A DNA stretch of 55,368 nucleotides, taken from Euzebyales bacterium (lineage in GTDB: Bacteria > Actinomycetota > Nitriliruptoria > Euzebyales > JAHELV01). Made by a program: the position numbers and the translations under genes. The DNA lies in assembly GCA_035461305.1 (NCBI GenBank), contig DATHVN010000135.1:1-55368 (forward strand), read 5' to 3'. The notes under the pieces are model-generated. The model saw only the letters and a list, made by a program, of their open reading frames with translations. It was not told where the DNA came from and did no database searches. Of the stretch, positions 43,612 through 45,826 are shown in pieces (the stretch's first letter is position 1; each line of letters begins with the position of its first letter).

Positions 43612-45000
43612 TCATTCCGCGTAGAGGTCGGCGGGGCGCGTGACCCCCTGACCGTCTCGGGCGAGCACCACGATCTCGTCGGGCTCGGCGTACGGTGACC
43701 CGGCCAGCATCTCCCTCACACGTCGCCGCTCCCGGTCGAGGTCGGCATTGGTTGTCCATTGCGCCGAGCCGGCGGCGACCGCGGCGCCGCCGGCGAGGGC
43801 CAGCGCGTCGACCTCGCCATCCCCGGTCGTCGACCACCAGGGGCCGCAGTCAGCCTGGTGCCCGTCGGCCAGCACAGACCGCAGCACCATGCGCAGGCTG
43901 CGCTGCTGGCTCGCGGCGAGCGTCGACCGGTTCGCGGCCAGCACCCCCGCCCCGCGTCCCAACTCGAACGCCTCGCGGTGGGGGAGCACGATCGCCAGCC
44001 ACAGGCGCAGGAACGCGTCACGCACCTCGTAGCGGACCCGCCGCGTGCGCCGCGCGTCCTCGCCGACCGGAGTGACGCGGTCGACCAGACGCAGCGCCTC
44101 GAGCAGCGCCAGCGCCTCGCTGGTCGACGCGGGGGCGAGGCCGGTGCGCTCGCGCAGCGCCGAGAAGCTCTCGGCGCCCAGCGCGATGAGCTCCAGCACC
44201 CTCGCGGCCGCCGAGCCGGGCGTCAGCTCCTGCAGGACCACGGTGCCCTCGTCGCCGAGCGGCGCACCCGGTCCGTCGAGCAGCTCGGTGAGGTTGGTGA
44301 GCAGGCCCTCCCGCGGATCCCACAACGTGAGGTAACGCGGCATGCCGCCGAGCGTGCAGTAGGCCTCCATCCACGTGTCAGGATCGTCACCGCCAACGAG
44401 CAGGGGCGCCTCGTGCCACGTGAACGGCGCGAGCCGCAGGTGGGCGTCGGCGCGGCCGAACAGGGGCGCGTCGGCGGCGACCAGCTCCTCCATGAGCCCG
44501 ACGTGACTGCCGGCGAGCACGACCGACAGCCGGCTGTCGCGGCGGTGGTCCCAGCGCGCCTGCAGCGTGCTGGGCAGCGTCCGGTCGGCCTCGCACAGGT
44601 AGGGGAACTCGTCGATGATCAGCAGCAACGGCTCGTCTCGTGCTCGGGCGAGCAGGTAGCCAAGCGCCGCGTCCCAGCTCGGGAGGTGCCCCAGGTCGAG
44701 CAGGTCGCCGGGCTGTGCGGGCAGGACCGCGCGGATGCGCTCCTCGAGCCGGCGCAGTGCCTCGCCGATCGGTGCGCGCGTGCCGGGCAGGAAGATGGCG
44801 CGTCGCGACGCGGAGAACTGGTCGAGGAGGGCGGTCTTGCCGACACGTCGCCGACCCGACACCACGGCCATGCCGCCGTCGTCGCCGCACGCCCGTTCGA
44901 GCGCGCGCAGCTCCCGCTCGCGGTTGACGAACCCTCCCCGTGACCGGCGCAGCCGGTCAGCCTCGTGCGTCGTGGAACCGTGCTCCGCGATGTGTGGCAT
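43612..45000 (-). CDS. AAA+ ATPase with C-terminal DUF234-type nuclease-like domain
   Basis: 462 residues. A STAND/AAA P-loop is near the start, GRRRVGKT (49-56), then Walker B LLLIIDEFPYL (about 124-134) and the sensor-1 strand LSVVLAGSHVGLM. A winged-helix region (AAARVLELIALGAESFSALRERTGL) follows, and the last part (DGEVDALAL with a beta-strand pattern) resembles the DUF234 nuclease-like fold found in archaeal-type ATPases. The ATG at 45000 has no ribosome site. Four 16-bp repeats lie 51-114 bases upstream. These proteins are widespread and their role is unknown. Confidence 0.88.
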   Translation of the reverse strand: MPHIAEHGSTTHEADRLRRSRGGFVNRERELRALERACGDDGGMAVVSGRRRVGKTALLDQFSASRRAIFLPGTRAPIGEALRRLEERIRAVLPAQPGDLLDLGHLPSWDAALGYLLARARDEPLLLIIDEFPYLCEADRTLPSTLQARWDHRRDSRLSVVLAGSHVGLMEELVAADAPLFGRADAHLRLAPFTWHEAPLLVGGDDPDTWMEAYCTLGGMPRYLTLWDPREGLLTNLTELLDGPGAPLGDEGTVVLQELTPGSAAARVLELIALGAESFSALRERTGLAPASTSEALALLEALRLVDRVTPVGEDARRTRRVRYEVRDAFLRLWLAIVLPHREAFELGRGAGVLAANRSTLAASQQRSLRMVLRSVLADGHQADCGPWWSTTGDGEVDALALAGGAAVAAGSAQWTTNADLDRERRRVREMLAGSPYAEPDEIVVLARDGQGVTRPADLYAE

Positions 45001-45050
45001 CGCTGCAGTCTGCCATCGCCGGGACGGTCACCGGTGGATCTGCCGTCGCC

Positions 45051-45114
45051 GAAGCTTGGCCGCGCCGAAGTTCGGTAGGACCGAAGTTCCGTAAGAGCGA
45101 AGTTTGTCGTCCAC
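45051..45114. repeat. Four 16-bp direct repeats (iterons) upstream of the AAA ATPase
   Basis: Units start at 45051, 45067, 45083 and 45099, each beginning GAAG(C/T)T: GAAGCTTGGCCGCGCC, GAAGTTCGGTAGGACC, GAAGTTCCGTAAGAGC and GAAGTTTGTCGTCCAC. The middle two are most alike. Overlapping them is the perfect palindrome TTCGGT-AGG-ACCGAA (45071-45085). Regular spacing and dyad symmetry point to protein binding, but no regulator is known. Confidence 0.7.
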
Positions 45115-45196: not shown

Positions 45197-45826
45197 GTGT
45201 CGAGGTTGGCGGCGGGAGCGGTCTCCGCACTGCTCGGTGCGCTGATCGGCGTGGGCGTCCTCGTCGTGCTGGAGCGTTCGCGGACCGAAGCCATCGCACC
45301 GGTGGCAGCGGCTGCGACCGAGATCACGTCGACGGCGCCGGACGCCGGGGCGGGCGAGGCGTCCTCGCCGGAGCCACGCGAGCCGGTCGCCGATCCCGTC
45401 CGGGTGGTCATCCCGGCGATCGACGTCGACGCCGACCTCGTGGCGGTGGGCCTCAACCCCGATCAGTCGATGGAGGTCCCGGACTTCGGCGAGGCCGGAT
45501 GGTATGAGCCGGGACCGCGTCCGGGGGAGCCGGGCCCGGCGGTCATCGCCGCACACGTCGACTCGGTCGCGGGCCCCGACGTGTTCTACCGGCTGCGCGA
45601 GCTCGAGCCGGGCGACGAGATCACGGTCGAGCACGCCGACGGCGCGCGCTCGACGTTCGCGGTGCGCGACGCCGAGCAGCAGGACAAGGACGACCTGCCC
45701 GTCGAACGCATCTGGAACGACACCGACGACAGCGTGCTCCGCCTCATCACCTGCGGCGGCGAGTTCGACCGGCAGCGGCGCAGCTACGAGTCCAACGTCA
45801 TCGTCTACGCGGACGCCCGCGGCTGA
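45197..45826 (+). CDS. srtF: Class F sortase
   Basis: 209-residue membrane-anchored transpeptidase. One N-terminal helix (AVSALLGALIGVGVLVVLE), an Ala/Pro linker, then the sortase barrel: VRVVIPAIDVDADLVAVGL, GWYEPGPRPGEPGPAVIAAHVDS with the catalytic His, and LRLITCGGEF with Cys186, followed by a basic segment RQRRSYESNVIVYA providing the Arg. No C-terminal helix, as in class F. The GTG at 45197 follows GAGAGGAG. Confidence 0.93.
   Translation: MSRLAAGAVSALLGALIGVGVLVVLERSRTEAIAPVAAAATEITSTAPDAGAGEASSPEPREPVADPVRVVIPAIDVDADLVAVGLNPDQSMEVPDFGEAGWYEPGPRPGEPGPAVIAAHVDSVAGPDVFYRLRELEPGDEITVEHADGARSTFAVRDAEQQDKDDLPVERIWNDTDDSVLRLITCGGEFDRQRRSYESNVIVYADARG

Follow-up and report, generated by a model that had tools for sequence, protein, structure and literature searches.

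A gene for a 462-residue ATPase (positions 43612..45000, minus strand) lies on a 55,368-nucleotide contig of an Euzebyales bacterium, the whole of which was analysed and is called the window below. An earlier note, made from the letters alone, had drawn attention to short repeats at regular steps ahead of this gene and had suggested that the ATPase may bind them. The locus raises the question of which protein such repeats serve, whether relatives of the gene carry them, and what their occupancy would do to the gene.

The repeat array before the window ATPase gene

The repeats proved to be real: GAAGCT, GAAGTT, GAAGTT and GAAGTT start at 45051, 45067, 45083 and 45099, at steps of 16, 16 and 16, and the palindrome TTCGGT-AGG-ACCGAA reported within them is present at 45071-45085. 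The array lies just upstream of the ATPase, as had been stated, its end being 50 bp from the start codon (45000, minus strand). The proposed repeat unit GAAG(C/T)T is present, but the true unit is longer and consists of a 9-bp palindrome plus a 7-bp spacer. Read on the ATPase strand the repeat takes the form of an odd palindrome, CGAA(S)TTCG, and a motif scan delimits an array (45050..45106, minus strand) of four such CGAAGTTCG-like sites at exact 16-bp steps: site 1, CAAACTTCG, at 45098..45106 with one mismatch; site 2, GGAACTTCG, at 45082..45090 with one mismatch; site 3, CGAACTTCG, at 45066..45074, exact; and site 4, CAAGCTTCG, at 45050..45058 with two mismatches, all on the minus strand. 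Since a 9-bp palindrome alternates with a 7-bp spacer, the array contains two kinds of dyad, centred on the 9-mers and on the spacers respectively. The 15-bp palindrome recovered by inverted-repeat finding is the spacer-centred dyad between sites 2 and 3, with its half-sites one helical turn (11 bp) apart, and would correspond to the footprint of one dimer of a winged helix-turn-helix (wHTH) domain.

The self-similarity of the array at lag 16 reaches P = 0.003, the floor of 300 shuffles. A two-copy pattern occurs twice in the window, both times in the array, against an expectation of 0.00 from 100 shuffles, and a relaxed version of it has three matches in the 4.24-Mb genome, two in the array and one on another contig, inside a reading frame that is sulfotransferase-like by eye. 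A fifth, decayed site, CAGACTGCA, was recognized by motif scan and ortholog comparison close to the start (45004..45012, minus strand; register -12), a place held in most orthologs by C(A/G)AACTTCG or TGAACTTCG; from its position it is possibly the -10 element of a leaderless transcript. A sigma-70 consensus scan of the window array found no promoter. A sortase gene (45197-45826) diverges from the intergenic region that holds the array, and several of the orthologs seen have other upstream genes. Between its start codon and the conserved FVNRERE (44940-45000) the window protein carries about 20 additional residues; most orthologs begin instead with MPNFVNRE or MANFVNRE.

Conservation in orthologs and features of the ATPase

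Sixty-one related genomes (the window's own included) were searched, of which 36 gave a protein match, and 22 genes were retrieved, namely the window's own and 21 orthologs of 66-89% identity. The array is conserved upstream of orthologs, so that the refuting outcome named in the earlier note did not occur: 20 of the 22 genes (window included) have two sites 16 bp apart, where a site has at most two mismatches to the motif and the spacing is exactly 16 bp. The same two-site rule is satisfied by 3/440 shuffled 260-nt pieces; a looser control, for which 260-nt pieces were taken from anywhere in the ortholog loci, on either strand and without removing the arrays, gave 42/642. The exceptions are L006, with two sites 32 bp apart, and L022, with a single site. 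In 18/22 genes the pair is placed at -12/+4 or -15/+1, over or at the start codon. A site falls within codons 1-5 in 20/22 (18 at +4 and 2 at +1), which mostly encode M-(P/A)-(K/N)-F-V, with residue 3 mostly alternating between K and N along with the centre base S of the palindrome. The four genomes of the window's genus carry an array further upstream: sites fall between -121 and -58 in the window gene and in L005-L007, and in the window and L005 the copy near the start has decayed. A search of the 61 genomes with at most two mismatches to the motif returned 33 matches, against 2 for the reversed pattern. All 17 matches with 0-1 mismatch are at a window-clade ATPase gene, as are 8 of the 16 with two mismatches; the remaining 8 are strays, and five of these come from genomes that lack an ortholog.

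The protein behind these arrays combines an ATPase_2 (STAND-like AAA) domain, a winged helix and a PD-(D/E)XK-like C-terminus. It matches PF01637 (ATPase_2) above cut-off (E 3.7e-15), has the Walker A motif GRRRVGKT, and matches the PDC-S27 profile with E 5e-22. The wHTH, the proposed DNA-binding part, spans residues 264-326 (44023..44211, minus strand); the Pfam MarR_2 match (E 4e-6; 27.3 bits against a cut-off of 27) covers residues 264-318, and the end of the wing was set by eye on the alignment. An AlphaFold2 model with mean pLDDT 94.6 shows three helices followed by two strands in this region. The DUF234 label given earlier needs correction, as the window protein has no PF03008 match at E<=0.001, in contrast to 73 of 78 aligned members; ATPase_2 and PDC-S27 are matched by 78/78. 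A nuclease-like C-terminus stands as a statement about fold family but not about activity in the window clade, where E-x-K has been lost: the window protein keeps the nuclease D, followed by S-x-Q in place of the family E-x-K (residues 412-414; 43759..43767, minus strand). Neither E nor K is kept in any of the 19 window-clade proteins covering the site, while D, E and K are all present in 89 of 113 other members. The window protein thus has the domain order of the ATPase_2-DUF234/PDC-S27 proteins, from which it differs in giving no DUF234 match and in belonging to a clade without E-x-K.

We take the ATPase_2-DUF234 proteins to be COG1672. The description of the family as one whose function is unknown still stands, and it corresponds to the PADLOC candidate defence system PDC-S27. 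In the account given by PMC12988326, PDC-S27 is an ATPase fused to PD-(D/E)XK, a candidate in archaea and bacteria, and experimental validation is pending for most such ATPase-PD-(D/E)XK candidates; the words 'promoter' and 'operator' have 0 occurrences in the main text of that paper.

The closest solved folds to residues 1-317 are the Pyrococcus abyssi ATPase 2QEN (Z 24.8 over 299 residues; profile match E 2.5e-20) and SSO1545, 2FNA (Z 22.6 over 293 residues; E 8e-15), both with rmsd of about 3 A. These matches stop near residue 317, before the C-terminal nuclease-like domain of the window protein. Next come plant NLRs, CED-4 and Orc/Cdc6 proteins (1w5t Z 16.4, 2qby Z 14.2), and this series of fold matches fits a STAND-type ATPase. 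For a comparison with plasmid replication iterons, which stand beside a replication-initiator gene, the ATPase fold is thus near that of Orc1/Cdc6, its best matches being 2QEN and 2FNA. A maltose-system structure is also among the fold matches. The STAND regulators MalT and IniR likewise join an ATPase to a DNA-binding domain; IniR is described as a regulator of the iniBAC operon in which an AAA+ domain like SSO1545 is followed by a MalT-like middle domain and, at the C-terminus, a LuxR-like DNA-binding domain (PMC5760070). Unlike in IniR, the small wHTH of the window protein lies between the ATPase and the nuclease-like domain, and its only recognised target is its own gene.

A near-constant pitch with changing letters across the family

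A by-eye reading of distant paralogues, each apparently with an array of its own, prompted a test over the whole family, i.e. ATPase_2-wHTH-PD-(D/E)XK genes (DUF234, PADLOC PDC-S27). The region -150..+60 of each start was scored for self-similarity at lags 8 to 30 against 300 dinucleotide-preserving shuffles, and a start was counted as passing at P<=0.01 at lag 15 or 16. L013 and L051-L053 were left out before start matching (L013 was later read by motif); an N-terminal match was found in 137/140 loci (all but L038, L040 and L050), and 134 of these had enough upstream DNA. Of the 134 discovery starts, 52 reached P<=0.01 at lag 15, 20 at lag 16 and 11 at lag 30, with 0 to 5 starts at every other lag; 184 control ORF starts from the same loci gave 4 at lag 15 and 3 at lag 16, or 7 in total. 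Restricting the comparison to the 92 starts not inspected beforehand (78 of 80 named bacterial or archaeal records and 14 others), 51/92 pass against 7/184 controls (Fisher P about 1e-22, relatedness not modelled). Of the paralogs earlier read by eye 5/21 pass, several holding just two or three diverged copies. When the discovery set is reduced to representatives at 50% identity 28/55 still pass, which excludes redundancy of the sample as the source of the signal.

A replication set of 57 loci, from which 4 without a start match and 13 seen before were removed, left 40 starts, used without clustering. Of these 30 pass (21/24 haloarchaeal and 9/16 mixed), other lags being passed by 0-1 starts except lag 30, with 6. 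The enrichment at lag 30 is the 30-bp harmonic, and no other pitch is enriched. Tiling of 174 loci placed the signal in -120..0 (83/172), with 0-8% at all other offsets to +1560 and lags 14/17 at 0-7 loci throughout; it found no second array to +1560. The shuffles, lag test, replication and tiling together rule out chance or a simple tandem repeat, and the 184 control ORF starts with the tiling rule out a feature shared by gene starts at large. Among the sampled relatives, about half or more carry 15/16-bp arrays at the gene start; those that do not pass at P<=0.01 number 41/92 unseen starts, 10/40 replication starts and 16/21 by-eye paralogs. By record name, passing starts come from actinobacteria, clostridia, Chloroflexi, planctomycetes, proteobacteria, haloarchaea, a Methanosarcinaceae and a Pyrodictiaceae archaeon. 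The pitch is 16 in the window clade, L034/L134-L136, L035/L188, L234 and L236, and 15 in the other passing starts; these include L017, a window-clade gene whose lag-15 match is not the operator motif.

The letters of the arrays differ between clades while the pitch remains near-constant at 15 or 16 bp, i.e. 1.5 helical turns; examples are ATAATCCAGATTATG (L123), AATTCCAAAATAGCC (L127) and TGTAGTACA at step 16 (L035). Before a DUF234 gene at L234, CAATTATTGTGATTAA is repeated at a 16-bp step with 33/33 matches; the Methanosarcinaceae genome that holds it (G373) has 15 DUF234 and 17 DUF4143 matches. Haloferax volcanii is among the control genomes that have a DUF234 match. Among paralogues, 12 of 15 family genes in six genomes reach P<=0.01 (7 were already in the discovery set, and 7 of the 8 new ones pass), and arrays within one genome differ in sequence except between near-copies. 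Of the 84 starts reaching P<=0.03, 47 show dyad symmetry of the folded unit (P<=0.05), and in 57 the array ends no later than the start anchor. Comparison of array similarity with protein similarity gave a partial value of 0.24 for the ATPase domain and 0.12 for the recognition helix (permutation P=0.003), and 21 of the top 40 covarying columns fall in the ATPase, the excess in the recognition helix having P=0.023 and that in recognition helix and wing being small. The recognition helix and wing covary weakly with the array sequence beyond phylogeny; we do not use this covariation as proof of self-binding, since the ATPase domain tracks the arrays better.

A haloarchaeal two-site pattern from one clade had 11 matches at up to one mismatch in 40 genomes, and its reversed control had 10, so only exact matches carry weight. 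Each of the five exact matches marks the start of a family gene, in one case a truncated copy; of the 6 one-mismatch matches, 3 adjoin family genes and the remaining 3 lack a full family gene nearby. The truncated copy, at L281 (G324:C8), is a family gene that matches over its first 72 residues only and is preceded by a haloarchaeal array; one of the 3 matches without a full gene, at L279 (G364:C2), is an array-like stretch with no family gene at all, perhaps a relic. A triple-site pattern, used to look for viral decoys, matched 4 viral contigs (L288-L291): at L289 the match is a simple 8-bp repeat, at L288 and L291 it is a 16-bp tandem repeat, and at L290 it falls inside a reading frame. Family ATPases were also seen at 14 loci on IMG/VR contigs (L292-L305, viral status as labelled), 4 of which show lag 15 at P<=0.01.

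The DUF4143 ATPases (PDC-S01) are also a single-gene AAA family, with start arrays in part of the sample, and three of the scanned DUF4143 proteins match PDC-S01, which is described, like PDC-S27, as an ATPase fused to PD-(D/E)XK (PMC12988326). Their pitch is 22-23 bp, as against 15-16 bp in the PDC-S27 family, and the latter pitch was rejected for them, lags 15 and 16 passing in 1 and 0 of 29 and in 0 and 0 of 26 starts. Lags 22 and 23 pass (P<=0.01) in 5 and 10 of 29 starts, 14 in total, in a first sample from the window's phylum (L148-L177), and in 2 and 2 of 26 in a second (L250-L277), where all 4 are from genome G109, which had also given the first sample a start. An earlier run with a stricter motif, using 17 of 30 loci, had lag 22 in 4, lag 23 in 3 and lag 15 in 2. 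The DUF4143 starts L154 and L165 have near-perfect tandem units.

A candidate autoregulatory operator and its implications

That the array belongs to the ATPase is borne out by 20/22 orthologs, by all 17 close motif matches and by the same-pitch arrays in relatives. With the array tied to the ATPase, and with relatives showing the same pitch in other letters, self-binding is the most economical reading: quite probably each ATPase binds its own array through the winged helix as phased dimers and represses its own gene. Two of the features expected of such a system are found, namely repeats before or over the start of the gene and a DNA-binding domain in its product. The array would then be a cooperative operator, in which one wHTH dimer spans each 6-7-bp spacer with its half-sites 10-11 bp, or one helical turn, apart, and neighbouring dimers contact half-sites 5 bp apart within the 9-mer, on the opposite face, so that dimers would stack at a pitch of about 10.5 + 5 = 15-16 bp. 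This half-site geometry favours binding by the protein's own winged helix. The start codon of window-clade genes lies under the -12 and +4 sites, which probably also overlap the -10 element of a leaderless transcript; protein bound there would block transcription. At three picked bacterial loci a sigma-70-like match has its -10 overlapping or next to the array, with a chance expectation of 0.2-0.8 matches each (0.8 at L126). Judging solely by the position of the array, over or just before the start, repression is likelier than activation. Such repression would keep a costly STAND ATPase at a low level, and if the ATPase were recruited elsewhere or changed its nucleotide state the operator would clear and the gene would be induced. 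Paralogues, having their own arrays, need not cross-regulate.

It is unlikely that a separate host regulator, rather than the ATPase, binds the arrays. Such a regulator would need a new specificity for each paralogue, given that array sequences differ between paralogues of one genome, and yet the same pitch across bacteria and archaea; close matches to the window-clade motif occur only at that clade's gene; and the ATPase, which has a winged helix of its own, is always present (the loci having been chosen by the ATPase). In its favour, the ATPase's binding of the array rests on inference, array sequence is followed more closely by the ATPase domain than by the wHTH, and in the window a local regulator shared with the divergent sortase gene is conceivable. 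There is also a small chance that the arrays are assembly platforms, the ATPase forming a phased stack on the sole array at its own start, with the bound state as the armed but inactive form of a STAND sensor. Occupancy of the self-operator would in that case be the sensing step of the PDC-S27 family: if the platform or its transcription were lost, through host takeover, DNA degradation or decoy DNA, the gene would be induced and the ATPase-nuclease released to oligomerise, and the window clade, without its nuclease residues, would be a derived pure regulator.

Improbable is a further possibility, that the array is a target of the ATPase-nuclease itself, for instance a site at which a selfish single-gene element is cleaved, replicated or mobilised, as might be suggested by the PD-(D/E)XK-type C-terminus of the family, a fold near Orc1/Cdc6, a profile match to the transposon ATPase TnsC, and the haloarchaeal truncated copy and orphan array-like site. 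The window clade has lost the E and K from all 19 proteins covering the site and still keeps the array, which points to a regulatory role and makes a cleavage site unlikely, and the phased signal is confined to -120..0 with no second array to +1560. It is very improbable that the repeats are a fortuitous by-product of the conserved N-terminal codons (M-P/A-K/N-F-V) or of RNA structure around the start codon, even with a site in codons 1-5 of 20/22 orthologs, as the -12/-15 site (18/22) and the distal sites of the window's genus are non-coding, residue 3 is mostly K/N at the palindrome centre, residues 2-3 vary across the wider family, and 57/84 arrays end at or before the start anchor.

Under the preferred reading, a cooperative operator of the ATPase's own gene, the arrays may be set beside known autorepressors. 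Proteins of the MarR family, the C proteins of restriction-modification systems and AbiEi repress their own genes from an operator over their own promoter, with palindromic half-sites. The probable placement over the gene's own promoter, the palindromic half-sites and the proposed cooperativity are shared with these operators; but those autorepressors are separate small regulators, whereas in the present case repression would come from the effector ATPase itself. The PDC-S27 arrays also differ in having a near-constant family pitch with changing letters. Cooperative autoregulation is a regulatory device of an already-known kind. Literature searches limited to open-licence papers found no earlier report of these arrays, and what appears to be new is an array that recurs across a family of STAND-type ATPases with a nuclease-like domain, near-constant in pitch and free in sequence.

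The array rule helps to locate true starts and decayed copies of PDC-S27 family genes. Near-constant pitch combined with free letters also makes the family a large natural collection of protein-operator pairs from which wHTH specificity could be learned. As a defence candidate PDC-S27 is abundant and still unvalidated, and the arrays give its members a testable candidate DNA ligand. A cognate DNA site for many members would turn 'function unknown' into direct tests of binding, footprint, reporter activity and ATP dependence.
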